Assembly: GCA_963920765.1 (NCBI GenBank) | Contig: OY987247.1 | Span: 5,862,471-5,926,470, forward strand | Source of the DNA: Ulota crispa | Lineage: Eukaryota > Streptophyta > Bryopsida > Orthotrichales > Orthotrichaceae | Direction: 5' to 3' | Length of the DNA stretch: 64,000 bases | Shown: positions 5,903 through 63,215 of the stretch, one piece after another | Layout: every line of letters starts with the position of its first letter | Position numbering within the stretch: the first letter of the stretch is position 1 | Program-made: the position numbers and the translations under genes | Notes under the pieces: model-generated | What the model was told of the DNA's origin: nothing | What the model saw: only the letters and a program-made list of their open reading frames with translations | Database searches by the model: none

Positions 5903-6544
5903 TTAACCCTAAATGCTCAAGGCCTTTCTAAGCTTCTTGGAATTTCCATGTAACCAAACAATCAATCAACCTTTTCATGATTTTCATCAAGTTTTTTTTC
6001 AATTGTAACCATACAAAGTTAAACTAATTATGTTATGGGGAAAGAAATCACAACAATATCACTTATAGTTTGAAAAATTATAATGTTTGAACATGAGGAT
6101 GTTAAAATTGTAAAAGTGATTTGAAGTCCTCTAATCCTCATTTCACATGTCAAATCTAAAAAGTTGGTCACCAAAAAAAAAATGAGGTTTAAGGTCATTA
6201 CATATCTAACTTTAATCAATTTACAACTTTAAAAATCTACTCCTATATGTATTTTTAAATGGATTTCTAAGGTGGATTTTTTTCTAAGCTCTAGTGTATA
6301 TGAGGCTCATTTTCAAGATTTTCCAACATTACAAAACTCAAGATTGTAGTGGACACCCTTGTACAAAATCTTGAGTAGATTAATCATCAACTTTCACTTT
6401 GAAAATCAGATTTCTGATATTGAAAATAGACTTTAAAAAAACTTATATTGAAAAAAAAACTAAAAATAGTTTTCCATAAGGTTTTATTTATCTTCAAAAT
6501 TTTGCAAAGACCCAAATATGGTCGCTTGGTCCTTTAGGGGTTAA
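5903..6544. mobile_element. TTAA-flanked piggyBac-like MITE, copy 1
   Basis: TTAA at 5903-5906 is followed by CCCTAAATGCTCAAGGCC. The right end reads TGGTCCTTTAGGGG followed by TTAA at 6541-6544. The interior is the inverted, diverged counterpart of the element at 57813-58454. TTAA target sites with CCC-starting termini are the hallmark of the piggyBac superfamily. There is no transposase inside, so the element is non-autonomous. Confidence 0.7.
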
Positions 6545-6810
6545 CACAAGTTTGTACTTGGAGTCTCGAGGGTTCTGTGTTGTCAGCAAAGTATGGAGGG
6601 AGTGTCAAAATGAATTCCAGAGTTCAGAAAATAGTAAAAATAAATTAACTTTACAGCAACAAGATAAACAGAAGCTGCAAAATCACCGATGGCATGATAG
6701 TTGGTAACATGACCTTAATGGAATAATCTGGTTCAAAATGACCAGTCCTGGACTGAAGCGATTTGTGGAGATTGTTGGATTGCCGGTAAATTGGTTCAAT
6801 GTGGATGTCA

Positions 6811-9800
6811 TCAATCGTCAAGCTCCGCAACTCGTCTCAAAATTTCAACCTTCCTGTCTTCCTCCTCCTTCACTTCCTTCACCAGCACTGAGATTTTACT
6901 TCGGGCTCGAGTCAGCTTTGTTTCCATTTTCTTCATGAGGAGTGCCATCTGCGTGTATCCGGTCTCTTCATGCAAAGCTTTGACCTTTTGTGTCAGTTCC
7001 AGTCGCATCTTGTCAATTGAAAGTCTCTTCTCGCGACTAACAAAGCTGGACAAGATCGAATTTCTACGATGGCTGTCGAATTTCTCCTCTTGTAATAGAG
7101 CAAATTTAATTGCTGGTTCACCCCTGTCGAGCAGTACAAGATCAAAACAGAGATATTTGAGTCACTTTCTCAATGAAATTTGAGAAACAGTAGCCTATGC
7201 TTGAGATGCACCCACCTAAATTTTTATGGTTCTAGGAGTGCAAATTAACAATGAAAATTATTAGGTATTTTCAACAGAACTTACCCAAGTATGTGCTCAA
7301 GGAAATTTTTGGAATGAATCAGTCCACCGTCAAGCGACACAGCTCCATTAATATGGAACTCCTGAGCAGCGAGCATGTGCTCCTTAGTGTCGTACACTTG
7401 AAGATAAGAAAATAACTGAAAGAAGAGAGATTCACGAAGATTATGCTTGGCTGGAGTGGCATAGCACTCAAGTTGCTGTAGATTGAAACGAAGTAGATTA
7501 ACAGCGTAGCCGAGATATCCTTTCGGACAGGTTTCGTGCTTCGGCCAAGGATCTGGGATGAGCAGCAGTCTTTGGGGATGGTTGAGGTCTACACTGGGCT
7601 GCCCATCTTTTCGCTTGTAAAAACTGCGAGCATATTCAAACAGTTACGAATACTAGATATTTAGAGAATTGTTACTTACAAAAAAAATTGAGAGCTAGTG
7701 TTCATCGATTCCTTACCTAGCTTCGTTGAGAACAAGAACTCGGAAAGTGCCACTAACGCTACGGTTTCTGCTGCGAGCAAAAGCGTGCAGCGTTAAGTCG
7801 TTAGCCTCCGATTTCTCCGCATGCGATTTTTGGAGGTATGTCAAACCCTTCTCAGACCTGCACACAATCATCAACATTCTCTCTACCCCCAGGTAGTCCA
7901 CCAGAGCACTGGGGGAAGAGACCTTTGCGTCAAAACCTTCGCCAGGGAGCAACACAGTTGATTAGTTTAGCGAAATTCGAATGTTATGGTAGATGTTAGT
8001 TACCGGTTAAGAAGATCATTGCTCACACAAGCGAGGAGGGCTACAATGCCCAAGATTTCGCTGCCGGCTCCTCCTGGAGCGAATACGTTGCTTGTGTTCA
8101 CGACGGCTTCCAGGAGAAGGCTGGCTGCATGACTTCCTGGGGGGTCACCTTGCTTCTGGAGAAACTCGATCACTTGGGGCACCGTATATATGTCTTCAGA
8201 ATTAGGACTCAAGGCTCTCGCATTTGCCAGAGCATCGTCCTTTACGTCGCACTCGAACGCATTGAGTTCCTCTGCATCATGTCATTTACTCATAAACGAA
8301 GCTTGTCAAAAAGTTGCATGGACTCAGGTACGAATTTCCCAGGCTCTTTCAAGCTGATTGTCTCATTTTCGCAGTTAACTAATATTAAGTTCGACATCAT
8401 ATGCAACATCATTTTCCGCAGCCTTTAAGAAATCTCTCGTACAATATGACTACTGGAGTATTGGAAGTTTACGGCCATATTACCGATCGATTCAAATCAA
8501 ATGGTTCTCTCATCTGTATTATGGGCTATGGCAGACCTTTCCAAAGTGCCTCTACGTTGTCCACTTCTTGCCGTGTACGTTTGAGGATACTTAGCTCCTC
8601 TTCTGACCTTTTCACTTTTCGCCCTTGCTCTCGCAATTTTCTTTGCATTTTCTGTAGAACGTAGGAATTTCATTGTCAGAAGTTCCTGTCTCTTGCTAAT
8701 TACCTCCATGCCTTCTGATGGAGCTGCAGGTCAAGTACCAAGACTTATTCGCTCCCTGTTAAAACCAAATCTACAGGCAAATTGTAGAGACAAAATCTGA
8801 AAATACACCTCACCAGAACCCAGGTCATCACTGGAAGCCTCACCGTATTACGATCAATGAAATCCTTAAGTTCCCTCTCGTAGTCTTGACGCAGTGCTGG
8901 TGCTTTCATTCGTTTATGTAGTTCGTCCTTCGCGTTCCAGTTCAACATTAATTGTTGGGAAGATGACACAACAGATAGCTGACTCGGTGCTGTTGCCGTT
9001 CTCAAGTTGTTTATATTTGACAACTTGGAAACAACTTTCACCTGCAAGATCCAGCGAATGTACGGTAAGTTCACCAAATCTCGTCACTGTTCGTGAACAG
9101 ATTCAAGCTCGAGTCTTTAATAAGGTCACGTAGAACTCCTCCTAGAACGACCTTACACTTTCAATGACAATAGTGACAGAAACCGTTCGTTACTTAGATT
9201 TCAAATCTGATGCCTACTCATGGCAAGATCTGACGTGGCAGTGAAGTAGCATCGTACAATCTTGGGACAATTTCTGATCGCCATGACGAAGAAACAAAAT
9301 CCTACCTCTCCTGGACAGATACACTGGCACCTGGGGTAAGAGTAATGGGTACTTGCCTCGAGAACAAAAAAAAGTTCTGGGTGTACAGCATGTGCAACTC
9401 GACCTCGCCAAGTTCCAGGTACGATTGGTAGTTTGATTGCCGGGAGTGTGCAGGCACCGGAGTTGAGAGTCACAGAGACTTTCAAGTTCCAGTCTAAAGT
9501 AAGATTGTGAAGAGATCCATTCATCTTGCTATCGACATTGCCATTCTCATCAGTAATTTGAACTTCCAAGCCCTCGAGCTGACTTCCGGCGTGAGCTTTC
9601 TCCGGCACCTGCGTGAATGCATTTCACTACGTCTGAGAGCAGTGCGAAACTGGCGGAATTTCGTAATCAATTGAAGGTTCGAGCTAGAAATACTGTTACA
9701 AAGTTCAACTCTATCTTACCTTCAAAACTCGAAGAGATCTATAGACGGTGTGAAAATTCAGTGCCAGAAGTGATTTTCCTTCACCGGACATAATTGCGAT

Positions 9801-16294: not shown

Positions 16295-17560
16295 TTAGCT
16301 CCGAAGTATTAATAAAACCTTAACTCAAAACTTCGAAACACTCATCACATCAGCAGAGCTCCTTTTATTCCGATTCTCGACTCTCCAGAAGGCTGTCTAT
16401 TGGCTCTCTAAGAGAGCATAATTCAAAATTCAAATAATTCTGGACTTTCTCTTCATTCAAGGTTGACTTTTATCGCAGATATATAATTCTGAGGAATCCT
16501 CCCTTACAACAGAACAGCTAAGAAAACCTCGTCCAACAACAAAATTGACTAACTCATCAACGAAACGTCAATAAACATAGGCCAGCCTTCATCAATTCCA
16601 ACAAAACACCGATGCAACTAAATTAACGTCAACAACGTACGTCGAGTTCAGCTTACATGAAATCTCTTGAGTCTTGTCCTCCGATCAGCACCTCCTCCTC
16701 CACAAATCATCAAGAATCGGACAACATTGGCATTGCGCGTGTTGTCAAACTGATAAAACCTTAAATAATTTTCCGTAATCTCTCGCTTCTTCTTCGATCA
16801 ACACCTCCACCAGCACTCTACCAAATAAATACTTCGAAACACTCATCACATCAGTAGAGCTCCTTTCATTCCGATTCTCGACTCTCCAGAAGGCAGTCTA
16901 GTATTGGCTCTAGAAAGCATTCAACTTCAAATTAATCTGGACTTTCTCTTCATTCAAGGTGGACTTTATCGCAGATACAATAAACATAGGCCTTCATCAA
17001 TTCCAACAAAACACCGATGCAACTAAATTAACGTCAACAACGTACGTCGAGTTCAGCTTACATGAAATCTCTTGAGTCTTCCTCCAATCAGCACCGCCTC
17101 CTCCACAAATCATCAAGAATCGGACAACATTGGCATTGCGCGTGTTGTCAAACTGATAAAACCTTCAATACTTTTCCGTAGTCTCTCGCTTCTTCCTCGA
17201 TCAACACCTCCACCAGCACTCTCTACCAAATCAATTCAAGAACTCGACAACATCTGCCGCCTTCCAACTCCAATCAGCACCTCCTCGATCTTCCACTACA
17301 CAACTTAAATCATCAAGAATCGGACAACAGTCATTGGCATTGCGCGTGTTGTCAAACTGATAAAACCTTCAATAATCTTCCGTAGACTCTCGCTTCTTCC
17401 TCGATCAACACCTCCACCAGCACTCTCTACCAAATGAAATTCAAAAACTTGACAACATCTGCCGCCTTCCACTTGTAGAACCTGAACAAATTACTGTAAT
17501 CTCTTGCTAATCTTCCTCGATCATCACCTAATTTAACTTACTCCCGTCCTCCACTACGAA
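16295..17560. repeat. Tandemly duplicated upstream region of the GMI1-like gene
   Basis: A block beginning ACTTCGAAACACTCATCACA (about 16329) is repeated from about 16839 with high identity over roughly 400 bp, and a sub-block containing GGCATTGCGCGTGTTGTCAA occurs three times (about 16729, 17132 and 17337). The repeats cover the likely promoter and 5' leader of the minus-strand gene starting at 16294. No convincing open frame runs through them. Confidence 0.75.
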
Positions 17561-17975: not shown

Positions 17976-18768
17976 TTAACCCGTAAAGGACGAGGCAACG
18001 CTTTGCAACCAGTACAATACGGTGTACTTTTTTTGTATTTGGAGTGCATTCACACCTTTATTTTATTTGAGATCAACAAAGAAGTTAGAGAATAGATCAA
18101 TGTTGTTTTAAGGTAGGAGGCTCATAAATGGAGCATCTAAGGGCTAAAACTGAATTTTGGGTAGGTGAAACTCCTTGGAATGATTTTTAGTAAACTTTCC
18201 TTGAAAGACAAGAAGAATCAGCATCTAATCCAAGTTGTTTCATATTTTTTGGAACTTTGTGGAATTAGTTATGAATATTTGAAATGGAAAGGCCATAGGG
18301 CTCTATAATGGAGCACCTCCTCAAATGTACATGAGCTGTGCATTGTTGAAGGGTTATGAAAAACAAGATGTACAAAAAGAGTACATTTGAGGAGGTGCTC
18401 CATTTTAAAACCTGCTCCAAATTTCAGCCTCCTACCTTAGTGAGGTAGTCAAGATCCCAAATTAAAACTTCTTGCAGGCAGCAAATGCCAATTTTACACC
18501 AACATACATATTATGTACTATAGTTTTTAAGGGTTAAACAACCAAGCAACCATAGTACATAATATGTATGTTGTTGTATAACTAGCATTTGTTACCAGCA
18601 AAAAAAATTAATTTGGGATCTTGACCACCTCACTAGAACAGCTCTAATATATATTCTAACCTCTTTGTTGATCTCAAATGTAATAATAATGTGAATGCAC
18701 TCCAAATACCCAAAAATCACATTGTATTGTATTGCTTACTACGGGCTGCCTACTCCTTTAGGAGTAAA
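17976..18768. mobile_element. Fold-back TTAA-type element with a nested MITE
   Basis: Starts TTAA CCCGTAAAGGACGAGG and ends with the inverted equivalent CCTTTAGGAG TAAA (right TTAA degraded). The two halves are a long palindrome: the segment reading GTGAGGTAGTCAAGATCCC near 18440 is mirrored near 18625, as are the ATACATATTATGTAC blocks on either side of the centre at about 18540. The left arm is interrupted by the TA-flanked MITE at 18109-18439. A one-arm relative lies at 33336-33557. Confidence 0.7.
18109..18439. mobile_element. TA-flanked MITE, AGGTAGGAGGCTC family, copy C (nested)
   Basis: TA at 18109-18110 precedes AGGTAGGAGGCTCAT; CAGCCTCCTACCT precedes TA at 18438-18439. The uninterrupted sequence survives twice in the window, at about 33463 and in the right arm of the same palindrome (about 18635), where CTAGTGAGG has a single TA. 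This confirms a TA duplication on insertion. Confidence 0.85.
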
Positions 18769-19457: not shown

Positions 19458-20373
19458 TTAACCCCTAAAGGACCAAGTCCCCTTTTTTAGCAACATAGCA
19501 ATTTTGGGAGGTACTTAAGATTGGAGATTTTCATATTTTAGGCTGAAATTTTAACAAAATGTGGGAACAAGGTTTATCTTTCATACGCATTAAATTTCAC
19601 AACATTTGAAAGTATGGATAAGAAAATATGGCCTAATATGTTGTTTTTTTTTCTTTAATGGGTAGCCTGGGCAGATTTTAAAAAATCACTTTTTCAAAAA
19701 CGAAAACTCAAAATTGATTAAGGGGATTCATGTGGATGTGGAAAGCTTTGAATCATTGTGTTTTGATCAATGAGATGAAAGTTATGAGGAGTTTTTGTTT
19801 GCATGCAATTATGGATTCTCTACTCTAAAATAAACTTTGAAGTCCTTTATTTTACTCAATTTTCAATATTTTGGAAAAAATACAAAGCCAAAGGACAAAA
19901 TTGTTTTATTACAACATTACAACAGTTGGAATTGGCATTTTTCATTTCCAAAATTAAATTCTTAACAATTTAGTGTTTTGAATCATTCTCTACTTCTTAC
20001 TTACTAATTTTTTCCCACATGTTATATAATTCCAAATGATTTGAAACTTTTTTGACATGTACCCCACTTAAGTGGAATAAGGAATCTAGGGAAGCACCAC
20101 CCACACAGCCTTTTTTCTTTAGGAATTTCACCTCTTGAAGGGTAGTTGCTTAGTTTTTGACAAGACTTTGCTGAATATTCAAACCATTCTATCTTCCAAT
20201 TCATGCGATAGAAGATTCTAATTTTTTTTCCAAAACTTCTAAATCTATCCCACTACAAGATCCTACGGTTACATATACAAAGAAATGTTTTTTGTTTTCA
20301 AATTTGGTTGATCCTCTAAAAATGGCAGTTTTGGAGAGTTTTGTGAAAAATTGCTTGGTCCTTTAGGGGTTAA
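19458..20373. mobile_element. TTAA-flanked piggyBac-like MITE, copy 2
   Basis: TTAA CCCCTAAAGGACCAAG at the left and CTTGGTCCTTTAGGGG TTAA at the right are exact inverted copies over at least 16 bp. The interior has no coding capacity and is related to the element at 58543-59473 (shared AGTTATGAGGAGTTT and TGGATTCTCTACTC). This is the best-preserved copy in the window. Confidence 0.8.
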
Positions 20374-20561: not shown

Positions 20562-21607
20562 TTAACCCCTAAAGCCTTGGGGCCTTTATTTTGTCAAAAG
20601 ACAATTAAAATTGCCATTTCTATTGCAAAGTGTAAAAAAGTTTGAAAATTGGTCTTTTGCATATCTAACCATAGGATCTTGTACTATATTGGTATAAGAA
20701 TGTTTGTAAATATTTTTGGCACAAATTGCAAAATATTTGCGTTGAAAGCGTAAAAAACAAACTTTTTTGCACCTTGGATATTTGACAATCTTTTTCTGAA
20801 AAAATGTTAAACTTGCATTCAATAATGAAGTTTATAAGTTATTTTTTCAAGAAGATGCTTGAATTGCCCAAAAAACATGATTGTCCATAACTTTTTCATA
20901 ATTATTGTAGGTTGAGAGCAGATTTGGCATGTCTTTGCCAAATTGATTATTCTTTGAGAAAAAACCAATTTGGCATTTCATTTTGTAATTAAACAAGATT
21001 AGGCACTTTCAGAAAAGTTGATATTATTTGGCATTCCATCAAATTTTTAGGTAGAATTAAGCCTTTTCTAAGCATCTTCCACTTTCTAAAATTAGTCATT
21101 GATATAAAATTTGCTGTAGATTGAGCCCTCTTAGAATCAACCTTGACCTTCCATTGTTAGTGAAGCTTAATGGCTTTTATAATATTCAGCATTTCAATTT
21201 TTTGAATTGTTTGACATTGGGCACTTTTGGAGAATAATTTATAGAATAGTTAGGCAAAATTTTGGGGAATTATTTTATGCCAAACCTGCTCTCAACCTAC
21301 AATAGTCCAAATGGAATGAATCAAAGCTTTAGATGTAGAAAAAACTATAACTTATGAGAAAAAAAAAACTTCAAAACAAAATCAACTTTAAAAAAAAATT
21401 GCTGCCCAATCTCCATAAACTTTTGCTTATCTAGGCATAACTTTTACTTTTGGGCATAGATTGGAATAAAATTTATTTTTTGCAAATGCTAATGTGTTTT
21501 CCTATCTTCAAAAAAATTTCAAAAAATCAAGTCAAAAATTGAGGCTATAGGTACCTACCCAAAATCCCATTTGTCCTCCAAGGGGACAATAAAGCTTTAG
21601 GGCTTAA
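20562..21607. mobile_element. TTAA-flanked piggyBac-like MITE, copy 3
   Basis: TTAA CCCCTAAAGCCTTGGGGCC at the left; AAAGCTTTAGGGC TTAA at the right. The interior is shared with elements at 33558-34504 and 60806-61735, for example the AAAATTGCCATTTCTATTGC and TGAATCAAAGCTTTAGATGT segments. Non-coding. Confidence 0.7.
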
Positions 21608-23838: not shown

Positions 23839-23839
23839 G

Positions 23840-29269: not shown

Positions 29270-29683
29270 TAAGGTAGTACGCTCAAAAACCGTTCACTCA
29301 TTTCAAACCATCTAGTAGCTTGTTGTGAAATGGTGCAGTGGTGGTTCTTACATTAGCCACTTACAACTCATTGAATGCATGGAAGAAAATTTGTTTTTAA
29401 TTGCAAGAGCCAATCATTCTCCTTGCTTCCTCAAATCTCTTCACAACTTGCAAGTGAACGGTTCTTGGAAGGTTTAAGGCTAATAATAGATACCTATGAC
29501 ACATGCACTTTGAAAATTCCTAAGTAACTCAAAAATGCTTCAAAAAATATGAAACGACTTGTGTTGCATTTAGCATCTATTTCTCTTTGTCTGAAAAATG
29601 AACTAAAAATCCTTCCATCAACGGAAAACCATGAAAAAGAGGGATGAGCCCTTAGATGGGCGGTTTTCGAGCGTACTACCTTA
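29270..29683. mobile_element. TA-flanked MITE, copy D (diverged, longer)
   Basis: TA AGGTAGTACGCTCAAAAACC at the left; GGTTTTCGAGCGTACTACCT TA at the right. The inner right segment AGCCCTTAGATGGGCGG corresponds to AGCCCTTAGATGGTTGG of copy A, linking it to the same family. It lies about 390 bp upstream of the plastid-protein gene. Confidence 0.7.
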
Positions 29684-48224: not shown

Positions 48225-49186
48225 AGGTACTAGTCACTGTTAAAAGTGACTTTATGGGCTTTTTATTTATGCCTATTTGATATCTCATACGGAGTGTATT
48301 CACCTCTTTACCTCTAAATGCCCAAGGCACCAAATTTTGATGTTCATGAAATTTTGAGGCCTTGTTGAAAGCAAAGAGTTTAATGTTATAAAGAATAATT
48401 TTGAGAAGTTGTTGTTTGAAGTTACCCTCAATGTTCAACTTGAATGACTAGCATATATCATTACAATTGTTTTTGGTGAAAGTTAGATTAGAAGCATGCT
48501 TATTGCGCACTTGAAATTGTGATGAATAATGTCACTACAAAGCTTATGACAAGCTGCCATGTTGGAAATACAAGTGGCAAGTCCAAAATAATGTCAAGAT
48601 CTCCCCTTGGGCAATGAGCATCTTTCCATTAAAAATTAGTCATTTAATAAAATCTAGATGTGTTTTTGCACCAATTTCACTTGGAATATCTCTTATGGGA
48701 ATTAGAGTCCATGCATCCACTATTAAATTCATTTTGATCATAGTGAATATTGATCAATAACTAAAGCTAAAGTATCTCTTTGTATCAACGGTCATTCTTT
48801 GACTATCGCATTGCAATCTCATTTGTGAAACTATCATGTCATAGATTTGTTTAGAGGATTCATTAGATTTGAAGTAAGAATAACAAATACTAAATCATCA
48901 TAAGTGTTTGTTTCCCAATTATGTAAAATAAAATTGTCATTTTGGCATAATAAATTTTGGGCGGCTGCAAAAACCCAAAAAGATTCCATAGTCATCTACA
49001 CTCAATCACAAATATCTTAACACATGCATAACATTTTGAATTTTTTTTGATAGCAACATCTAGACGACTTAAAATTCAAGATCCTAAAATTGTAATTTTG
49101 ATTCAATGTTTAATAATGATCTTACAACAACGATTCAAAAACTTCCAAAATGCCTTCTTGAAATTTAAAAAGGTGACTTTGGGCGT
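48225..49186. other. AT-rich intergenic DNA, no gene recognised
   Basis: Only short frames without motifs. A CTAAATGCCCAAGGCACCAAA motif at about 48308 resembles the left end of the TTAA element at 57813, so a degraded copy may start here; no right end is found. Confidence 0.45.
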
Positions 49187-49215
49187 CCAACCCATAAAAG
49201 ACCAAGTCCCCTTTT

Positions 49216-49441
49216 TGTTACGATACAAGATCAAGAGTCTACATTCCTTTCCTATTTTGAGATCATAACCTAATGTAGAAACAAACACTTTAAGAGACGC
49301 AAAGGTGACATTGAAAGTATTCCATTGTATTAAGCAAAATGTCAAGTGAAAAACAAACCTCTTCACTTAGTTTAAGAAGGAAATAGGAAGGATAACCAAC
49401 CTCTAATCAACGTAACCGCCATTACGAACTAGTTCGTAACA
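49216..49441 (-). repeat. 3' LTR of the gypsy element
   Basis: 226 bp, beginning TGTTACGATACAAG and ending TTCGTAACA on the plus strand, both terminal dinucleotides intact. It differs from the other LTR at roughly a dozen or more positions by eye, so insertion is not recent. Confidence 0.9.
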
Positions 49442-49455
49442 TTATCTCTCTTCTT

Positions 49456-51410
49456 AGGTAGAGTTTTTTTACGGTTTGGTGCCGGCGCCCCAGGGTGCTT
49501 CTTATGAAATTTTGCCATCGCTAGTGGTGCATTTTTTAAATTCGCCGCCGGCTCCCAAGAATTTTCTTCTGGTCCATAGTCCTTTCAAGAGACTAGATAT
49601 TGCAATCTTCTTCCCCGACCAAAAATCCGTGAATTAAGAACTTTGGGAACTTCCCATTCAACATCTCCATCACGAGTGGTAATCGGTGGGGGTGGTAATT
49701 GGCGTCGTCTCGGAATGGAATCATGACAATATCTTTCACGTAAAGAGACATAAAACACATCATAAATCTGCAATGTTTTTGGTAATTGTGAGTGATAAAC
49801 AACATCAGAGAGTTTAGCAATTACTGTAAATGGTCCCAAAAACTTTGGGGTCAGTTTCCGAGACGGCTCCGTTGTTGTTATATTATCGTGCCGAAAAAGA
49901 ACTTTATCGCCTATTTGAAATGTTGGTTGTAATTGTACCCCGCGATCATAGTTGCGTTTGGCGTCTTCCCCTGCAATTTTTATTATGACTTTAAGTTCTT
50001 TGTGAACTTGTTGTAGGTGTTGCACTCGGTCTTCCGCTGTAGGCACTGTAAATGTGGTTGGTGTAGAAACTAAAAATGCCGGATGATAACCATAAGTGGC
50101 ATAGAAATGAGAGAACTCTGTTGCAGAATGACTTGCGTTGTTACACGCAAATTCCGCTATTGGAAGGAGATCGGCCCAATCATCTTGCTGGGTTGTAGTG
50201 AAAGTTTGAAGAAATTGCTCAAGCACTTGATTTACCCTTTCGGTTTGCCCGTCCGCATGAGGATGAAAAACCGTGGTTAAAGATGACCAAATTCTAAGGA
50301 GTTCGCAAAGTCTTCTCATGAACTTAGAAACAAAAACTGGACCATGATCCGAAATTACCTCCTCCGGTATGCCATGAAACTTTCAAATATTATGTAGATA
50401 TAATGAAGCAATTTTATTGGAGGTAACCGTTTCCTTTGTAAGAATAAAATAACCTAGTTTTGTATTTTTATCGACCATCACCATGATAGAGTCATGTCCA
50501 CTGCTATTTGATAATTTTACTATAAAATCGGTAAAAATTCTTTTCCACGGTGTATAATCGGTCGGAATGGGTTGCATTACTCCATATCTAGGATGGTGAG
50601 TTGATTTCGACCATTGACACAAGTCACATCCCTCAACGTACCGGTAAACATAGCGGCGTAATGTGGACCAATAAAAGATTTAGCTAACCAAATCCAAAGT
50701 TTTAGCTCTCCCTTGGTGTCCCGCGGCTGGTGCATTATGCCGGGATCGCAAAATTCGCCGCTTGAGTTCCTCGTCGTCTGGTACATATATGAAATCCTTA
50801 AAGCAAAAGATTCCATCATCCAACGTGTATCCTTGAAGTCGTCGGCGTATATTTTGGGGAGGTTGCTTGGAATTGTCTTTGAAAAATGACAATAGTGGTT
50901 GTAGTGTGGCATCCTCTTGCAACGCTATCTTAAGTCATTCTATAATCTATACATCCGCCCATACCGGTTCATGAGACTCTAGCGCAGCCAATCGCAGTAA
51001 AAGTCGATTCTCTTTAATTTATCCCTCGGTAACATCTATTCGTCTAGAAAAAGTGTTTGCCCTTCCATTTAGCAATCTCGCCCGGTAGTAAATTTCAAAG
51101 TTAAAAGCAGATAAAAATTCAGATCATCAAACTTGACGTTGATTTAACTGTTTTGTAGTAAGAAATACTCCAAATTTTTGTAGTCCGAGAATATCTGGGT
51201 TTGATACGGTGATCTTTCCAAATATACCCACTAGTCTTGAAACGCCAAAATTATACTTAAGAGTTCCTTATCATAGATATCATAGTTTTGTTTTGCTGGA
51301 GACATCTTTGAACTACGGAACGCACAAGGATAAAAATGTCCATCATCCCCGTGCTGTGAAAGAATAGCTCCTGTTGCCACATCAGATGCGTCCGCCTCTA
51401 CAATGAAAGG
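49456..51410 (-). pseudogene. RNase H, integrase and chromodomain remnants
   Basis: 51.0-51.4 kb holds a decayed RNase H. The integrase zinc-binding region is seen at 50.68-50.92 kb (RHNAPAAGHQGRAKTLDLV), the catalytic core at about 50.3-50.6 kb (YTPWKRIFTDFIVKL, HPHADGQTERVNQVLEQFLQ) and the C-terminal domain at 49.6-50.3 kb (FQIGDKVLFRHDNI). The element's frame ends with a chromodomain (EWEVPKVLNSRI, QYLVS, then KDYGPEENSWEPAANL), interrupted by a stop where a tryptophan codon is expected. Confidence 0.82.
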
Positions 51411-52501
51411 TCATTCAAAATTAGGATGGAGCAATACCGGTGCTTGGAAAAATCTTGATTGAAATTCCATGAAAGTGTGGTCCACTTCTATAGTCCATTC
51501 AAATTTTTTATCCTTTTTTATCAGCATGATAAGGAAACCGGCAATCCTAAAATAATCACATATAAAACGTCGATAAAAATTGGCAAAGCCAAGGAATGCT
51601 TGCACTTCCTTCACAATTTTTGGTATGGGCCAATCCTTAATGGTTTGAACCTTGTCCTTGCACATTTCCAATCCTTTAGCAGACACCACCATTCCTAAAA
51701 ACTCAACAGATTGACAATGAAACCGACACTTTAATTCCTTGGCATAAAGTCCAAGTTTCTCTAATCGTTGAAGAACTTCCCGCACGACTTGTACATGTTC
51801 TTCCAGATCTTTTGAAAAAGTGAGAATGTCGTCCAAATATATTACTATGAAAATGTCCAATTGATCTCCAAATATCTCCTGCATGTAAGATTGAAATTGG
51901 GTAGGCGCATTGGTTAATCCAAAAGGCATCACTAAATACTCGAACAACCCATATCGTGTTTTGAATGCCGTTTTAAACTCATGTCCCAATGCCATCCGCA
52001 CTCGATGGTATGCCTGTCTTATATCCAGCTTAGTGAAAATCTTTGTTTCCACCAACCAGTCTGTGAGCTTTAGAATAAGAGGTAACGGGTAGTGATTTTG
52101 GATTGTGACTTTATTCAAATTTCGATAATCCACGCAAACTCTGATGGAACCATCTTTCTTCTTGGCAAATACAATTGGTGCCGATATCAGGGATTTGGAT
52201 CATTGAATCCATCCTTTCCCAAATTTTCCTCTAAATACTTGCAAAGCTCTTCTAATTCCGCCAATGACATAGATCAGAGACCAGTATTTCGTGGCTCCTG
52301 GCCCTGCTTGAATTCAATCATCATGTCCTCCACGCCGTGTTTTGGCAACTCATTTGATGCCTGTTCACTAAAAGCTCCACTTAAGTCGCGATATTCCTCT
52401 GGAAATGAAGAATTTTTTGTATTAGAAAGACTTACTTTGGAAATATTGAGTGCATAAATTTTCGCATCATTCGCCAAAAAACAAAAAGCGGCCGCAGACA
52501 C
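51411..52501 (-). pseudogene. Reverse transcriptase of the gypsy element
   Basis: The frame 51411-52133 carries the core RT motifs in order: MDYRNLNKVTIQNHYPLP, FTKLDIRQAYHRVRM, YLVMPFGLTNAPTQFQ, VIYLDDILTFS with the YLDD catalytic box, and FLGMVVSAKGLEM. The part just upstream (52274-52501, including PEEYRDLSGAFSEQASNELP) is the RT approach region in another frame, so at least one frameshift separates them. The catalytic aspartates are intact, but the reading frame of the polyprotein is not. Confidence 0.88.
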
Positions 52502-52528
52502 AAAAGAGTGCGTTGAAGCAATTAAGTT

Positions 52529-53562
52529 TCATATAACGGGCCTGGTACCTTTCATTGGCTTACCGGGCCTTATACCTTTAAGCCCCTTATCGGCCCCTGC
52601 ACCCGGTATCCCTATGCCAGATGTCGGGGAGGGTACCGGGGCGGGATTGCCTTCAACCGCCAGCTTGCAGCCTGCAGCCGGTATCGAGTTGCTGGGTGGC
52701 GGGGCAGGGCTCACTGCCTGGGCCCGCCCGGTAGGTCCCGGCAGTCTCGGCAGGACCGTAGCGCCAACGCTCGGGCTGTTTACAGACCCCGACATGCTCG
52801 TAGCGCCAACGCGCAAGCTGTCTGCGAGCCCTGACAAGCCCGCAACTCCTGCAAGGCTCGCGGCGCCTTTTCCTTTGCTAATTTCTTTTTTGATTCTTCC
52901 TTCGTGAACTTTGCTTTGTGAATGCAATGCACTCGCGGTAATCCCACCATTTGTTGACCATCGCCAAGCATCATTCCCAGCTCCGGAATGGAGGCTCATT
53001 ATTTCAGGTATTGTACAATTCGCTCCACAATACGCTGAGTTGAACATTACACTCCTTTGTAACCAACAAATAGTTGAGTCATGACGAATCAACCAAGGGA
53101 TGCTTAAAATAAATGGGTATCTCCCTGCCGCCACCAACTTCTCACGATGACTCCCAATTACAAGTTCAACCATTGCTTTGTGTGTAATAAGCCCGGAATT
53201 AATTATTCGGCCATCAATCACTCGGACTTCTCTTAGTGCTTCCTTGAGTTTTACAATTGTATTGCACTCCTCTGCAAACCTAAGATGCATGAGGATTCAT
53301 GTGGCTCTTGAGTCCACTAGAATGGAAGCCGCTATGGAGTTGATTGTGGAATCCAATGTTACATGGGCCTCCAAATCCAAAGTAGCCCGTAGAAATAATG
53401 GAGTCAATACATTTCCCAGATCCTCATGGATCACTAGAGGTTCCTTCCATTGCAAATATTGCTCATAATCAAGCTCATCATCCCTCCGTTTTATGCTTGT
53501 GCTTTGCTTCGAGATTGTAGCCGCCGTCGTCTGGACAATGCCCGGGTACTGAATCCTCCCAC
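52529..53562 (-). pseudogene. Protease region with a GC-rich Pro/Gly/Ala linker
   Basis: The aspartic-protease active-site region is recognisable near 53310 as ILVDSRAT in place of the usual DSGA, and is followed by an in-frame stop, so it is inactive. The rest of the fold continues at 53290. From about 52.87 to 52.54 kb the frame runs into a repetitive linker rich in Pro, Gly, Ala and Ser, whose DNA is strikingly GC-rich compared with the rest of the element. Confidence 0.7.
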
Positions 53563-54648
53563 TCAATCCCAGGCGTCTTCTTTTCTCGAGGTTGTTTCTT
53601 CCAAATTCATGGTAGCCGAAATTGAAAGTAGCCTAGAGAGATTTGTGGAGCACTTAACTCTGATATGTCCTAGTTCGCCGCAACCCCAACATTGCCCCTG
53701 GCGTTGATACTCTAGCCATTCCGCTGCCATTTTTGCCAAAGCTTGCGTGGCTCGAGTTGCGCCAAGCTCCATAAGCACTGGGTCCAAATTTGCTTGAGAC
53801 CTCGCACTTGGATCACGGAAAGGAGCAGTTGGAACTCTAACATTTTGGGAATCAAATTGTACCCGCCGATTTTGTCATCGGCCTCATAGCCTCTCATCAA
53901 TCCGGGACACCATTGCCATCCAATCTTGAAGTTTTTGTGGTTGGGTCTCTACGGTGGCTATGGAATCCAAGATCTCATCTTTGAGTTCTTCTCAAAACCG
54001 AGCCACCAAGCTAGCTTCATTCCATTTGACTTGAGCGGCATATTCATTAAACGTAGAAATATATGATGCCGCCGAACCGGTTTGCCTAAGCCAACCTAAA
54101 CGGTCTTTTGCGTTACTTTGTCTATCCAAATCATCGTAAATCTCAATGATGGATTTCCGGAAAGCATCATAGTCCGTCAACAGCTCATAATTGCGTCCTT
54201 CATCATGTGCTTGCAAAAGTGGTATCGCCCAATTTTGTGCAGCCCTTATCATATATGAAAGAGCATAAGCAATTTTATTGGCATCAGAATTATAAGTGCG
54301 TAGCTTATCTCGGAATATCAAACGTAATTGTGCAAGCCACTGGTACACCTCGTTACCCTTCTTTCCGGAAAACTTATTCAGTTCCGCTACTTTTAATTTC
54401 TTGATATAAAATCCATCACCTCGAGATTCTTCCATTCTTCTTGGTGCTCGCCCTTCTTCCCCGGATGTAGATGACGCTACTAGTCCTGGCCCCAACATCG
54501 CACGCTCTGAAAGTTCTTGCATCAAATGGGAGATTGCCGCTTGAAACACATTTTGAATTTGTTGTTGTATGAATGAGGCCAACTCCGATCCCACCCCTTC
54601 CAGCATTGTAAGCCCTCGCGGATCTCCGGCTACGTGCTTACAATTCAT
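53563..54648 (-). pseudogene. gag of the gypsy element, frameshifted
   Basis: The first block (53992-54648) encodes a retrotransposon gag capsid domain: helical, with LNKFSGKKGNEVYQWL, LSYMIRAAQNWA and YISTFNEYAAQVKW, the usual plant and fungal gag pattern. The frame then breaks; downstream frames up to 53563 contain a single CCHC zinc knuckle (CWGCGELGHIRVKC). The start ATG at 54648 is the first in frame after the 5' LTR leader. Confidence 0.8.
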
Positions 54649-55127
54649 GGTAGCTCAACCTAACTTAACAACATGACTTCTCCAACCTTCTTCACCCACC
54701 ACAATCTTGCTATTGTAGGTAAACATAGTTGAAACTTGCAATATGATTTATTTGATGCAAGTATTTCCTAACCCTAATCTTATTTCATTTATGCCTCTAC
54801 TCTTCTTTCCTTCCTAATTACTACCAATTAATTGGCCGTTATCCTATCTACCAACCACGGTGAATGCATCAAAATCTAAAATCACCTCCTCGATAGAACC
54901 AACAAACAACCTCAAGAACGCATTGAAACATTGAGTAGAACATGCCAAAATTTTGGAAAAAAAAAACCACACAAATTGTTTGCTACTCCTACCACCATAG
55001 AAAATTTGGAAGAACTCTTGAGCCTATTTACTTCACAATAATTTCCCAAAAGGCAACATCCCACGTTTGTCAAAACCAAATACATCCCTATTCGGTTGCC
55101 TCTTCATCCGAATGTGGGCTTTCAAGG

Positions 55128-55136
55128 ACTTGACAT
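55128..55136 (-). promoter_or_regulatory. Candidate self-priming primer-binding site
   Basis: Two bases inside the 5' LTR the sense strand reads ATGTCAAGT, not the TGG that opens most tRNA-type primer sites. It is exactly complementary to ACTTGACAT within the LTR. This arrangement is known from Tf1/sushi-type chromoviruses, whose transcript 5' end primes reverse transcription. It is an inference from complementarity only. Confidence 0.4.
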
Positions 55137-55138
55137 TA

Positions 55139-55363
55139 TATTACGATACAAGATCAAGAGTCGACATTCTTTTCCTATTTTGAGATCATAACCTAATGTA
55201 GAAACAAACACTTAAGAAATGCAAAGGTGACATTGAAAGTATTCCATTGTCTTAAACAAAATGTCAAGTGAGGAACGAACCTCCTCACTTAGTTTAAGAA
55301 GAAAAGAGGAAGGATAACCAACCTCTAACCAACGTAACCGCCATTACGAACTAGTTTGTAACA
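55139..55363 (-). repeat. 5' LTR of the gypsy element
   Basis: 225 bp, homologous to 49216-49441. Its inner terminus reads TATTACG instead of TGTTACG. On the sense strand it contains ACTTGACAT (plus-strand 55261-55269), which is complementary to the nine bases at the primer-binding position just inside the LTR. Confidence 0.88.
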
Positions 55364-56070
55364 CTTTTGGCGGACAAATGGGATTTTGGGCATGTACCTA
55401 TGGCTAAACTACTTTATGTGATTTTTTGAAACTTTAATGGATAATGGAGAATTCAAAGATTTAAGTGGGCATCTAATTTTTTCTTCATTTTGACATTTAT
55501 TGAAGAAGTTAGAAATGAATTTATGGAAAATGGGTGAGATCGGGCAGCCCCAAAACTTCTTAAAAAATTGCATTTTTCAAAAGTAACAACATAAAATAGA
55601 TTCTTTAGACTTTTATATAAATGGGGAGCTTTAAATCATTTAATTTTGGTTGATGAAAAGAAAGTTATGATAAGTTTTTGTTTGCGGGTAGGTATGGTTT
55701 CTCTCAAATTCACACCTACCCGCAAACAATTACTTATCACAACTTTCTTCTCATCAACCAAAATTAAATGATTTAAAGCTCCCCATCTATATATAAGTCT
55801 AAAGAACCTATTTTGTATTTTTATTTTTGAAAAATTCAATTTTTAAAAATGATTTTGGGCTGCCCAATCTTGCCCGTTTTCTGTAAATTCATTTTTAACT
55901 TCTTCAATAAACGTCAAAATGAAGAAAAAATTTGATGCCCACATAGATATTTGAATTCCCCATCATCCATAAAAGTTTCAAAAAATCACACAAAGTAGTT
56001 TAGCCATAGGTCATGCTCAAAATCCCATTTGTCCCCCAAAAGGGGGCTAGGTTCTTTAGGGGTTAAAGAT

Positions 56071-57515
56071 TACTTGCTCTGTCCCACTATAAAGCTCCAA
56101 ATTAGGCATAGTTCTTGTCCCACTAAAAAGCTTCCTTTTGCTAATTTCAATTGTTAAGAAAGTGTTTGTCATGTTCAATGATTTCATGGGGTAAGTTGGA
56201 GCATTCCTCTCCTAACAAGCTTGGCCTTGCCCATATGAGGTACCATTGTTGCTACTAATCTTTAAATCATCAATAATGAGGAGCTAGCAACATGTACAAT
56301 CAGGTCCATTAGTCGTACAAACTGCCTTTTTGAGGCATTCATATTTTTTAATGAAAGTTGGAGTAAAATTGGTATGTTTTTGTCCAAAATTTTATCATTG
56401 CATCCTTACATAATCTCAATCAAGTGTACCAAATATCAATTTCAAAAAAGCAAAACTTCATTTGTGGTGAAATTTTAAAGCAAAATTCCATGGTTTTACA
56501 TGGTATTTTATTAAAAACAAATGGTGATGAATTTTTGAGACTTGATTTCATGGATAAAAAGGAAACATCCATATGCACATCTTCCATGCTAAAAAACAAC
56601 CCCTTAAGTAATAAAAATTTGATCAATAAAACATTCAATAAAACTTGTGACAGGCCCAAATCTTGAATTTATATTTTATTTTATGAAAATCAAGTTTTGT
56701 AATTTGACTCAAAAATTGTGACTAAGTTTGTATCTTTGAACATGATATCTTGTTTACTTGATGAAAAACTAGTTAAAAAATAAAGATATGTAACTTACAA
56801 GATTTGGGCCTATCACAAGTTTCATTGAACCTTTTATTAATCAAATTTTTGTTACTTAAGGGGGTGTTTTTTAGCATGGAAGATGTGCATATGGATGTTC
56901 CCTTTGTACCCATGAAATCAAATCTCAAAAATTCATCACCATTTGCTTTTAATAAAATACCATGTAAAACCATGGAATTTTGCTTTAAAATTTCACCACA
57001 AATGAAGTTTTGCTTTTTTGAAATTGATATTTGGTACACTTGATTGAGATTATGTAAGGATGCAATGATAAAATTTTGGACAAAAACATACCAATTTTAC
57101 TCCAACTTTCATTAAAAAATATGAATGCCTCAAAAAGGCAATTTGTAAGACTAATGTACCCGTCTATACAAATATGGTACTTTTTGCATGGAGTTTGGGT
57201 GTCCAAATGGCAACATCAAAGCTAGAGATTTTGCATACCTTTGGTAGATGGTATATTGATTCTAGAATGCATGTGTCAATCGTAAAAAGACTAAAACAAT
57301 GAGGAGCTAGCAGCATTTACAAACTAAGTACAAATATGATATTTTTAGCATGGAATTTGGCTGCTCAAGCAATGGCTTTATGAATGAAAAATTTACATAC
57401 ACCTGGCAGATGAGTTACTTATTTTGGATTGCATGTGTCACTAGAAAAATTTGAAAATATAGTTAATCCCTCATGGAGAAGTTTTTTGGAGCTTTATATT
57501 GGAATAGAGGGAGTA
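56071..57515. mobile_element. Mariner/Stowaway-like element with TA ends
   Basis: TA followed by CTTGCTCTGTCCCACTATAA at the left; at the right the complementary strand reads TA, then CTCCCTCTATTCCAATATAA. CTCCCTC-type termini with a TA target site are characteristic of Stowaway/mariner elements. At 1.44 kb it is long for a MITE; most of the inside is palindrome 3. No transposase is encoded. Confidence 0.6.
56301..57163. repeat. Large palindrome 3 (arms about 365 bp)
   Basis: The arms 56301-56663 and about 56796-57163 are nearly identical inverted copies with an AT-rich spacer of about 130 bp. Mirror-image open frames of about 80 codons lie in both arms on opposite strands (56424-56666 and 56773-57039) and differ at only a few residues. 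Inner-arm sequence is shared with palindrome 1 at 22972-23838. Confidence 0.85.
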
Positions 57516-57812: not shown

Positions 57813-58454
57813 TTAACCCCTAAATGCCTTAGGCATCAAATGTTGAAGTCAACAATATTTTGAAGTTCAAGAACCCTAACTAAGTTTCTACATTTAGTAA
57901 TTTACATTTTTGAACTATTCTTTTTGAAGTTTAGTTTTAGTCCCAGAAATTTGATTTTAAAAATGATTGATTATGATTTTTCTATTCAAGGTTTTGTGCA
58001 AGGGTCTTGATTTTTTGTAGTGTTGAGAGTTTTTGGAAATGAGCCTCAAATACACTAGATCTTAGAGAAAAAATTACACTAGAAACTCATTTAAAAAAAT
58101 CTTAGAAAAGATTTTGGAAAGTTATGCAATGATTGGAGTTGCATATGTTAATTCCTTTAACCTCATATTTTTTTGGTGACCAGTTTATTAAGTTCAACAT
58201 GTGAAACGAGTATTAGAAGATTTCAAGTCATCTTTGCAGTTTTAGCACCTCATGATCAAAAATTATAATCTTTCAATACATAAGTGATGTTAACATGTTT
58301 TCTTTTCCTATGTCATCTCTAGCATATCCGGTTTGAATTTGTATAGTTACAATTTTAAAAAAATTGATTCATATTATTAAAATGTTGACTTTTTGTTCAA
58401 TTTAGAGAAAAATTCCTAGAAGCTCAAAAAAGGCCTCAAGCATTTAGGGATTAA
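57813..58454. mobile_element. TTAA-flanked piggyBac-like MITE, copy 5
   Basis: TTAA CCCCTAAATGCCTTAGGC at the left; GCCTCAAGCATTTAGGGA TTAA at the right. The interior is the reverse of that at 5903-6544, including the segment with TGGTGACCAGTTTATTAAG. Non-coding. Confidence 0.72.
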
Positions 58455-58542
58455 AAAGTAAGGATGAAGCTCTACAATACAAATACCGGAGGTTCACAAG
58501 TAGCAATCTTTTACATATTAGTTCAATTCAAAACATGTAGTT

Positions 58543-59473
58543 TTAACCCCTAAAGGACCATTGTCCCTTTGGGGGACAGGTTGGACTTCAAGCATGTACC
58601 TATGGCTAAACTACTTTGTGTGATTTTTTGAAACTTTTATTAAAAGTGGAGAATTCAAAAATCTATGTGAGTATCTAATCTTTTCTTCATTCTAACATTT
58701 GATGAAGAAGTTATGCATGAATTTGTGAAAATTTGGGGAGGGCCGCCCGTTTGGGCAGCCCAAAACTTCTTTAAAGATTACATTTTTTTAAATAAAATTT
58801 TGAAATTGGTTTTTTAGATTTTTTTATACATGAGAAGTTTTGAATCATTCAATTTCAATCAACAAGATGAAAGTTATGAGGAGTTTTGTTTGCAAGCAGT
58901 TATGGATTCTCTACTCTAAAATAAACTTTGAAGTCCTTTATTTTACTCAAATTTCAATATTTTCAGAAAAATTTAAACCAAAGGAAGTAGATTGTTTATC
59001 ACAATATTATAACCATTGGAATTTGCATTTTCATTTCAATAATTAAATTCTTAACAATTTAGTATTTTGACTCAATATTTCCTTCTTTTTACGTACTATT
59101 TTTTCTTATGTGTTGTATAGTTTCAATTGATTTGAAAATTCTCCCACACATACCTAACTTGATCTCCTACATAGAAAAAATAAAGTGCAACTTTGGGTAG
59201 AGCATTTTTTTTGTTATGAGAGTGGTCAAAGGCTTTTGAAATTTTTGGGCAACATGGAAAAAAACTTTTTTTTCACTTTAAATGTGAATATCTCACTCCT
59301 CTCCATCTGGAATGAGCTAATTTTTTTCCTAGAAGTACCTCTTCTAGTTTGAGGCAAGATCTTAAGATTGGATTTCCCAAAACAAAATATAAAATCCCTT
59401 TTTACTAAACCTCCTAGGAGTAGCAAGTTTCAGTGATTTTCACAAAAAAAAGGCTTGATCCTATACGAGTTAA
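58543..59473. mobile_element. TTAA-flanked piggyBac-like MITE, copy 6
   Basis: TTAA CCCCTAAAGGACCATTGTCC at the left; GGCTTGATCCTATACGAG TTAA at the right, the latter diverged from the GGTCCTTTAGGGG consensus. The interior shares ATGTACCTATGGCTAAACTA and GTGTGATTTTTTGAAACTTT with 55.4 and 60.9 kb. Confidence 0.65.
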
Positions 59474-60805: not shown

Positions 60806-61735
60806 TTAACCTCTAAAGGACCAACTGTCTATTCAACAGATAAATGGGATTTTGGGCATGTACCTATGGCCAAACTACTTTGCATGATTTTTTGAAACTT
60901 TTATTGAAGATGGGGAATTCAAAAATTTGCGTGGGCATCTAATTTTTATTCCAATTGATGCTAGGGAGCAAAAGTTATGCCCAAATAAGCACAAATTTGG
61001 GGACTCCGGGCAGCAAAAAAAAATCTTATAAAAACTTGAAAAAAAAAGTTAATTTTGTTTTCTCATAGATTATATCTTTGTCTACATCAAAGCTTTGATT
61101 CATTCCATTTGGACTAGTTATGAGAAAGTTATGGACAATCTTGTTTTTTGGGCAATTGAAGCATCTTCTTGAAAAAATAACTTATAAACTTCATTTTTGA
61201 ATGCAATTTTAACATTTTTTCAAAAAAAAATTGTTGGAGAGGGTGAAATTTGCTTTCTAGAACAATCTCACCATTGGGATCATTGCATTTCAATTCTATT
61301 GCAAGGTTACTAGCAATTTAAGTTTTTGTTCAATCTCATACCTTCTTTTGCCTAATGTCTTTTTTAATGAATGAAAATTAATTATTTTTTGTTGTTTTTT
61401 TTCCCAAGATTACCAACTCAACTTCCCACCATGCAAATGTAGAAATCCAAACTTTGTGGTGCAAAAGTTTTAAGTTAAAAAAGTTCAAAGTTAAATAATC
61501 TAGTCATGCAAGGTGCAAAAAAAGCTGTCTTTTAATATTAAATGCAAATATCTTCTAACCTGTATGATCAAAGTTCTTGAGTTTTGTATGACACATTCTT
61601 ATAGTAGTCTAGTATAAGATCCTACAATTAGATATGCAAAAAGATTGATTTTCAAACTTTTTTACTCTTTGCCATAGAAGTGGCAGTTTTGAGTGTCTTT
61701 TGACAAATTAAAGGCCACGGTCCTTTAGGGGTTAA
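60806..61735. mobile_element. TTAA-flanked piggyBac-like MITE, copy 7
   Basis: TTAA CCTCTAAAGGACCAACTG at the left and CACGGTCCTTTAGGGG TTAA at the right, both target sites intact. The interior includes the blocks shared with 20562-21607 and 33558-34504 in inverted order. Non-coding. Confidence 0.75.
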
Positions 61736-61964
61736 TATAAAATAATCTACAATACCTTTTCCCACAAAAACTACATTCCATGATAGCTTTTTGAAAAGTT
61801 AGCCATATGGATTTTTTTCCTGAATTTTCCAAGACCCTGAGGTACCTCAAAAGGTTGGGTATGGGTTTGTCTACCTTAGTATTCAAATGCTTTGCTAAGA
61901 TTCCAAGAGAAATTCAACTATAATGTCTCTACGCTAGGAAAGTAAATCTCCTAATTGAAACTTC

Positions 61965-63215
61965 TTAACCCCTAAACAACCATTGTCCTCTTGGAGGACA
62001 AATGGGATTTCAAGAATGTACTTATAGCTAAATTATTTTTTGTGAAGCTTTCATTAAAGATGGGGAATTCAAAGATCTACATATGCATCTTATTTTATCT
62101 TCATTCCAACATTTATTGAAGAAGATATGTAAGAATTTATCAAAACTAAGGGAGGAGGGGCAATTTAGGCAAAGGCCTCTTCTTTGTAAGTGGGTGTTGA
62201 CTCAAAAAAGGGTTAGCCCTTCTGGGCACAAGGTGTGGACACTTGAACAAAGGGGAGTGGAGTGGAGTGGACGGAGCCTATCTTGGGGGACTCCCAACCC
62301 CTCCATTGCTTTTGCCCCTTGTAAAATTTGGTACTTTGATGTTTTAAGTGGTTTATGTATTTGTTTTTTCATTATTTTTTTTCCAAATTGTAATGGGCTA
62401 AGAGCCCTTGCCTTTTACTATTTAGATTAAAGTAATTCAAATTTTTGAGTTTTGCATAAATCCTCCAATTTTGCCTACACCAAATAATGCATTTAGGTTG
62501 CTTTACCAATTAGATTGCCCTACGATGGAAAGTTACCTCATGACTCATGATTTGGCCACTTGGAGGCGCTTGTAACTGCTTAAATATTAAAATTTTACAT
62601 GGTTCACAACATTGACACAACTAGTTTATCTTCCTTCAGTTGTGTTATTATTGAGGCCTTGAAATGTTGCTTATTGTAGTAATTATTGCTGAAAATTAAT
62701 GTAGTAGCAATAAGTATTTAAATAGTGCAAAATGTTGAGAAATTAGTGTGGGGCAACCTAAATGCACTATTTGATGCACTGTACTTACAAATTTTAGGAC
62801 CTTTTGGCATTCAAAGATTTCTTGAAGTATGTTTTATACCTCTCATTTGACAATTTTCCCACACACCTAACTTGGTCTTCTACATGGATAAATTAAATCA
62901 CAACTTTGTGTAGAGTGATTTTTTTACTATGAGAGTGGTGAAAAACATGGATAAATTAAACCACAACTTTGTGTAAAGTAATTTTTTTACTATGAGAGTG
63001 GTGAAAAGGCTTCTAAAACTTTCAGGGAACAAGGGAATTTTTTTTTTCTTCACTTCAAATGTTGATATCTCCCTCCTCACCACCTCAAATGACCGTACCT
63101 CCTATAATATAGGGCAAGATACAACAGCTGGGTTTTCAAAAAAACTTTCTTTCCCTAAAAGCGACAGTTTTCAGTGATTTTCACAGAAAAAAGGGCTTGG
63201 TCCTTTAGGGGTGAA
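61965..63215. mobile_element. TTAA-type piggyBac-like MITE, copy 8, with nested insertion
   Basis: TTAA CCCCTAAACAACCATTGTCC at the left; GGCTTGGTCCTTTAGGGG TGAA at the right, where TTAA has decayed. It is longer than the other copies because the GCATTTAGGTTGCC-family element at 62483-62776 has inserted. A tandem duplication of about 70 bp (GGATAAATTAAA to GAGAGTGGTGAAAA) lies at 62885-63007. Confidence 0.65.
62483..62776. mobile_element. GCATTTAGGTTGCC-family element, nested
   Basis: Left AATAATGCATTTAGGTTGC, right GGGGCAACCTAAATGCACTATT, clear inverted termini of about 20 bp. The interior shares AAAGTTACCTCATGACTCAT with the copy in intron 2 of the plastid-protein gene. It sits inside a TTAA element and is therefore the younger insertion. 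Confidence 0.65.

Follow-up and report, generated by a model that had tools for sequence, protein, structure and literature searches.

What are the TTAA-flanked, CCC-ended elements that recur in a 64,000-bp stretch of contig OY987247.1 (assembly GCA_963920765.1, positions 5,862,471–5,926,470; hereafter the window), and which transposase moved them? An earlier reading of the sequence (the original prediction) listed eight such elements and named them piggyBac-like miniature inverted-repeat transposable elements (MITEs). Searches of the genome assembly (274.8 Mb, 157 contigs) support this reading. In the nuclear genome of the host, taken to be a non-seed land plant, the elements are almost certainly non-autonomous derivatives of DNA transposons from the piggyBac superfamily, as judged from empty sites with a single TTAA, transposase genes with the PF13843 domain and the ends that a transposase-bearing element, L056, shares with the MITEs (L numbers denote loci fetched from the assembly).

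Elements in the Window

The window contains 18 matches to TTAACCCCTAAA with at most one mismatch, compared with 0.49 expected (100 shuffles, maximum 2), and 9 matches to TTAACCCTAAA at the same tolerance, compared with 2.29 expected; 9 was reached in no shuffle. A BLAST search of the window was performed with a library of 16 elements taken from elsewhere in the genome, from which unrelated or mixed end pairs were left out (L006, L031, L051 430–1699, L056 2517, L057 7226 and L058 1398). The match limits coincided exactly with the TTAA ends at 5903–6544, 19458–20373, 57813–58454, 58543–59473 and 60806–61735. The elements at 20562–21607 and 61965–63215 were covered with inner gaps, and two copies beyond the original eight were found, one at 33567–34502 and one with an end at 56066. 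In total, library matches account for 7,175 bp, or 11.2%, of the window. The predicted repeats are thus confirmed: of the eight elements listed, five are delimited to the base, two are recovered in pieces and one, at 24884–25558, is more weakly supported.

All elements are listed here without a strand. The element at 5903–6544 has the ends TTAACCCTAAATGC and TTAACCCCTAAAGGACC and is 82% identical over its full length to L035 1514–2162, and the one at 19458–20373 has two perfect 17-base TTAACCCCTAAAGGACC ends (83% to the L019 element). The element at 20562–21607 includes an unmatched inner stretch and has the right end TTAAGCCCTAAAGC. The copy at 33567–34502, with the damaged ends TTAACCCTAAACCCCTAAAGG and TTACCCCTAAA, is 82% identical to the L016 element. 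The element at 57813–58454 belongs to the TTAACCCCTAAATGCC family and is 79% identical to L051 8902–9554. Members of the main family are located at 58543–59473 (86% to the L001 element across 940 bp; the right terminal repeat is decayed at 59473, the TTAA intact), at 60806–61735 (library match and paralogous empty sites) and at 61965–63215, the last being enlarged, with a mutated right end TTCACCCCTAAAGGACC and unmatched inner stretches that suggest a later insertion. The copy ending at 56066 is split by a long terminal repeat (LTR) retrotransposon into a left part of 29 bp (49187–49215, TTAA decayed to CCAA) and a remainder (55364–56066); when joined, both parts gave one alignment to positions 3–748 of the L023 element (76%).

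The element at 24884–25558, with TTAAYCCTTAAAATTTTCAG ends, was the sole one of the original eight without a match to the 16-element library. Its end TTAACCCTTAAAATTTTCAG occurs exactly 35 times in the genome (0 in the control described below). It represents a separate small, low-copy TTAA family, whose assignment to piggyBac, made from the ends only, is more weakly supported. Distinct end families are present within the window, namely the TTAACCCCTAAAGGACC, TTAACCCCTAAATGCC and TTAAYCCTTAAAATTTTCAG types. With lengths of 640–1,250 bp the window elements are long for MITEs; they show the inverted ends, high copy number, kinship to an autonomous-type element and lack of a transposase gene that define this class.

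A possible damaged TTAA element (TTAACCCGTAAA ... TTAACCCTTAAA) lies at 17976–18537 and had no match to the 16-element library.

Transposase Genes

The original prediction placed the source of transposase elsewhere in the genome and called for a DDD enzyme of the piggyBac type. Such genes were found in abundance: the piggyBac transposase domain PF13843 gave at least 120 scored matches genome-wide (best E 1.3e-73; 116 of 528 candidates scored) and matches in none of the 14 control genomes, and it was confirmed by Pfam on three reading frames. In a sequence search, a 436-residue reading frame from L052 matched the piggyBac transposase of Trichoplusia ni (PDB 6x67; E 3.6e-20), with an alignment of 307 residues of the catalytic domain that included the first two aspartate motifs, and the piggyBat transposase (9c0f; E 1.4e-16). 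A protein search with the L052 transposase returned 19 homologues (sources lgn, ena and jgi), all of them containing PF13843.

Of 14 aligned domains, 12 have the first catalytic aspartate, 9 the second and 12 the third, and 8 have the full DDD triad. The median pairwise identity of these domains was 36%. Pattern matching revealed a Cys/His cluster 186–195 bp past the domain and in its frame at 9 of 12 loci, several of them with stops before or inside the cluster; in L053 and L058 it was out of the domain frame, and in L052 the pattern was unmatched.

Transposase-Bearing Elements and Their Ends

Twelve transposase loci were fetched with their flanks (L051–L062). A search for TTAA pairs in the 1.5-kb flanks of these loci gave no convincing ends, the ends lying farther out. 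Similar inward-facing TTAA ends enclose the transposase in 8 of the 12 loci, namely L051 1863–6889, L053 111–7605, L054 152–7240, L055 2082–8091, L056 505–8537, L057 3290–9035 (reverse strand), L058 2896–7997 and L060 2863–8150. Three pyrimidines follow the TTAA at all 16 ends of these elements and CCC at 13 of them; CCC is found at both ends in five elements and at one end in L054, L055 and L060, and the main MITE families both start with CCCC. The partner ends agree at 10–13 of the 13 bases past the TTAA, whereas crossed partners agree at 8.0 on average. When TTAA pairs were ranked blindly in the first four loci, the top place went to the element's own pair in L053 and L054, while in L051 a pair of outer MITE ends outranked it and left it in second place; L052 had no convincing top pair.

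L056 (contig C7, 11,814,404–11,822,436; 8,033 bp) bears on the predicted transposase flanked by the same termini as the MITEs. It shares both end types with a main-family MITE: the similarity to MITE left ends covers its left 52–54 bp (78–85% identity), and that to MITE right ends covers its right approximately 58 bp (up to 84%). A genome search with L056 3460–8537 yielded 41 matches, with 40 of 1,724 candidates scored. Besides the segment itself, they comprised another transposase copy at 70% identity, one inverted self-match and 38 matches over the right part; among the matches listed, 37 of 38 non-self matches to the right part end no more than 2 bp from its TTAA end. The L033 element (approximately 893 bp, right TTAA decayed to TTGA) matches the left 54 bp of L056 at 84% and the right 598 bp at 74%, as would be expected of a derivative formed by internal deletion.

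These similarities suggest that L056 belongs to, or adjoins, the subfamily responsible for moving the main MITE family. Alternatively, the MITEs are of the piggyBac type and owe their mobility to another subfamily, which may since have been lost, the ends of L056 being only those of a cousin. Because the left-end match of L056 is short, this alternative is quite possible, though we lean against it. An end identity of approximately 78–85% over 52–58 bp, an identity of approximately 74% in the shared right part and the coexistence of many transposase subfamilies, as divergent as the 14 domains above, agree with it; against it, L056 has the two end types, left and right, in the correct orientation and has 590–650 bp in common with many MITEs. 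In addition to the proposed link between L056 and the main family, L057 may tentatively be regarded as a partner of the CCCCTAAATGCC family, since its left end is common to three MITEs of that family over 23–49 bp (78–91%) and its right end over 21–42 bp only.

An origin in the Kolobok superfamily, which also duplicates TTAA and is tied to the abundant T2-MITEs of Xenopus (PMC6004289; this and the other cited articles are represented here by excerpts), would account for the target and for abundant MITEs and is nevertheless very improbable. Kolobok has a transposase of another superfamily and ends that start with RR, all ten full-length Xenopus elements in the excerpt starting with AG (PMC6004289), as opposed to CCC and the 16 of 16 pyrimidine triplets found here. 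Moreover, the domains between the ends in the present genome are PF13843, one of them matching insect and bat piggyBac structures, in searches that included no Kolobok model.

L056 also holds nested repeats, including a MITE-like piece near 2517–3442. The window positions 4765–5466 match a stretch of L056 that also matches L015, L017, L025 and L060; a dispersed repeat family containing CCCTTAGATGG is found at 4875–5466 and 29507–29683.

Target-Site Duplication and Empty Sites

To compare filled and empty sites, the flanks of an element were joined with one TTAA and matched to other loci, the sites being paralogous and not orthologous. The joined flanks of 60806–61735 gave an uninterrupted match with a single TTAA to L007 and L006. 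Genome-wide, their junction was spanned at all 40 scored places (84–87% identity; 40 of 2,137 candidates scored); 20 of these sites were fetched, and each had a single 4-base site, which was exactly TTAA in 14 and substituted in 6. A clean single-TTAA empty site was also found for the element L051 8902–9554 and is located inside the window element 20562–21607 (positions 20957–21167). For L056 505–8537, the joined flanks gave matches across the junction at L057, at L031/L032 (one place) and at window 48898–49113; one TTAA is present in L057 and L031/L032, and the window site has TTAA with an adjoining 4-base gap. Because of the clean empty sites of these three elements, TTAA is target DNA that is duplicated upon insertion, which agrees with the original prediction, at paralogous sites. 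Because empty sites span L056 at three places, its 8,033-bp segment, transposase included, was inserted as one unit. A local test gave no spanning empty site for the other seven transposase-bearing elements.

The possibility that TTAA is only a preferred target, the actual duplication being TA (Tc1/mariner-like) or TTA/TAA (Harbinger-like), can be dismissed as hardly credible. The palindromic TTAA does contain TA, Stowaway and Tourist make up many of the MITEs of plants (PMC10004981), and if T-TA-A were an obligatory target, duplication of 2 bases would have the same sequence outcome as duplication of 4. However, TTAA stands on both sides of the filled sites with exactly one TTAA in 14 of 20 paralogous empty sites, and with this symmetry a 3-base duplication is incompatible with a TTAA on each side. 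PF13843 was found between such ends, in searches that did not extend to Tc1/mariner and Harbinger transposases.

Several results weigh against the assignment to piggyBac or against parts of it. Regarding the transposases, the matched stretch was free of stops in only 10 of 120 PF13843 rows, most copies being broken; no matched end pair was found in 4 of the 12 loci (one end in L052 and L061, none in L059 and L062); and the end pairs were chosen by eye as best matches, so that the permutation result (0 of 20,000) is descriptive and not independent. The left-end match of L056 to the MITEs covers only approximately 52 bp, no second full-length copy of L056 was found among the 40 of 1,724 candidates scored, and the family of 24884–25558 has no transposase partner so far. 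Some empty sites were untidy: relatives of L010 have CCAA, those of L020 and L036 differ by insertions or deletions, and 58543–59473 gave two matches that were partial and lacked an exact TTAA. A spanning empty site was missing for 6 of the 8 window elements tested locally among the sequences compared.

Taken as derivatives of piggyBac, the elements can be explained as follows. A DDD transposase of this type would bind short terminal repeats, CCC(C)T..., both on the 5–8-kb elements that encode it and on the gene-less derivatives of approximately 0.64–1.25 kb, and both would move by cut and paste into TTAA, which would be duplicated. Cutting and joining may proceed as in insect piggyBac, with a hairpin on TTAA and seamless excision. 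The main MITE family would have been moved by the subfamily of L056, and the subterminal dyad described below may be bound by the cysteine-rich domain.

Genome-Wide Abundance

Exact ends were counted over the assembly with the reversed pattern as a control. The 17-mer TTAACCCCTAAAGGACC occurs 8,154 times (4,072 + 4,082) and TTAACCCCTAAATGCC 4,241 times (2,118 + 2,123), the control being 0 in both cases. As a rough estimate, approximately 4,100 and 2,100 elements of approximately 0.93 and 0.64 kb amount to about 2% of the genome (5 Mb), if each element has two exact ends; the estimate misses damaged ends and counts each unpaired end as half an element. In 30 loci around TTAACCCCTAAAGGACC ends, the exact or near-exact partner end, where present, was mostly 750–960 bp away. 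The identity between copies in the sampled loci was up to 92% (L010/L036 and L016/L020).

Recurring tiny elements (72–79 bp) with both TTAACCCCTAAATGCC ends were also observed, their length being far below that of the 640-bp type; they are located in G000 at C1:241512–241590 (in L017), 531562–531640, 3362792–3362870 and 3324724–3324795. A telomeric origin of the TTTAGGG-like ends was rejected because other subfamilies start with CCCTTGCA or CCTTGTATT. Three contig ends were fetched, of which one contained a TTTAGGG array, one only N in the printed stretches and one neither.

Subterminal Dyad

In the cryo-EM structure of T. ni piggyBac, a dimer of the cysteine-rich domain is bound to a left-end palindrome at bp 17–33, with its centre at about bp 25 (PMC7351741). 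A dyad scan of 86 centres was performed for the eight transposase-bearing elements, the bp-25 centre having been spotted by eye beforehand. At the 5' ends the mean dyad score peaked at 25.0 with 0.562 (mean 0.252, standard deviation 0.076; the next score was 0.422 at 24.5), a value reached anywhere in 0 of 2,000 shuffles. The 3' ends of these elements have no dyad at bp 25 (score 0.234). The scores of individual elements were 0.75, 0.38, 0.88, 0.25, 0.50 (0.88 at 24.5), 0.62, 0.25 and 0.88, the dyad being individually indistinct in L053, L055 and L058, and the palindromes vary in sequence among elements. Several of 14 MITEs scored highly near bp 25 in one of their two ends (e.g., L010, L036, L020, L029 and L035); L009, L019, 5903–6544 and 19458–20373 were among those without it. 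A per-end hairpin test used single-base shuffles and is weaker than the dyad scan. The main left end, TTGTCCC-N3-5-GGGACAAATGGGATTTTGGGCA, occurs 824 times in the genome (control 0), and this count is not a test of conservation since the pattern fixes the arms of the palindrome.

Taken together, these data are compatible with a two-part left end, consisting of the repeat and a bp-25 palindrome of free sequence, that would be ancestral and under selection from insects to a spore-bearing plant, piggyBac being a long-standing and diverse resident of this plant lineage, in which many subfamilies would coexist, each having an end code and MITEs of its own. We propose this joint reading tentatively and put it not far short of an even chance.

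Comparison with Known Systems

Transposons of the piggyBac group are known chiefly from animals. The elements resemble T. ni piggyBac (6x67/6x68) in the TTAA target and its duplication, the CCC termini, the catalytic domain, the C-terminal Cys/His cluster and the centre of the left-end palindrome near bp 25. They differ from it in the length of 5–8 kb, in the thousands of non-autonomous copies and in the plant host; in addition, the dyad is found here at the 5' ends only, whereas an internal repeat is present in both ends of the T. ni element (PMC7351741). With piggyBat of Myotis lucifugus, which has a mammalian host, the comparison concerns the transposase alone, where homology was detected by sequence.

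The opinion of the original prediction that piggyBac is rarely or not reported from land plants was too strong. In the excerpts available, piggyBac-like elements are said to occur in fungi, plants and metazoans (PMC8086355, citing a survey), PiggyBac is one of seven angiosperm MITE superfamilies (PMC10004981) and it was recorded in all groups studied (PMC4438587). A fern is annotated with 1,230 PiggyBac copies (122 kb; PMC6890710) and a grass with a single copy (PMC8319324); the moss repeat content is given without a piggyBac superfamily in the excerpt of PMC9631980. The angiosperm and fern records share the plant host and the superfamily label with the present elements, and in the excerpts they consist of labels and counts without transposase linkage or empty sites (PMC10004981, PMC6890710). 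Among the open-licence articles examined, as represented by listings and passages, there was no plant piggyBac family anchored by transposase-bearing elements and empty sites and no transposase-anchored family in a moss, which is weak evidence of absence.

Elements of this kind are already known; in our judgement, those described here merit the attention of specialists for their host, their abundance and their bp-25 dyad. Because many end codes occur in this genome beside many transposases, the recognition of ends and the part played by the bp-25 palindrome are open to a comparative test. The genome also shows that TTAA MITEs in plants without seeds can belong to piggyBac and do not have to be classified as Tc1/mariner or unknown.

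Host Markers and Neighbouring Features

LEAFY is a marker of the land-plant lineage, and plants that retain dynein have swimming sperm. The LEAFY SAM domain gave 6 matches over the cut-off (best E 1.2e-27), at G000 C4:16275377 and five more places; one match is strong, and the remaining five may be other proteins. Dynein heavy-chain domains were found in 16 rows, 14 of them over the cut-off (best 8.5e-43). Because LEAFY and dynein domains were found, the host is taken to be a non-seed land plant, an assignment that is partly inferential. It is probably a moss, as the sizes of the contigs (ten of 15.8–41.4 Mb and one more of at least 5 Mb) suggest.

The retrotransposon that splits the piggyBac MITE is of the Gypsy type (49216–55363) and contains gag, reverse transcriptase and Tf2-1-like SH3 domains; its LTRs are 93% identical over 224 bp, and the target duplication CTTTT is located at 49211–49215 and 55364–55368. 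An Rfam search of the window gave 0 matches. Repeat families with three copies, two of them approximately 870 bp apart and one near 56–57 kb, are found at 23074–24606 and 56402–57063 and have no match to the piggyBac library. A local tandem-like duplication is located in a stretch of higher GC content at 16322–17426, with one pair identical (100%) over 91 bp. Finally, reading frames on the minus strand at 39167–41902 and 46360–46713, a region that had no match to plasmids by megablast, encode CLASP/TOG/HEAT domains and are probably exons of a host gene.

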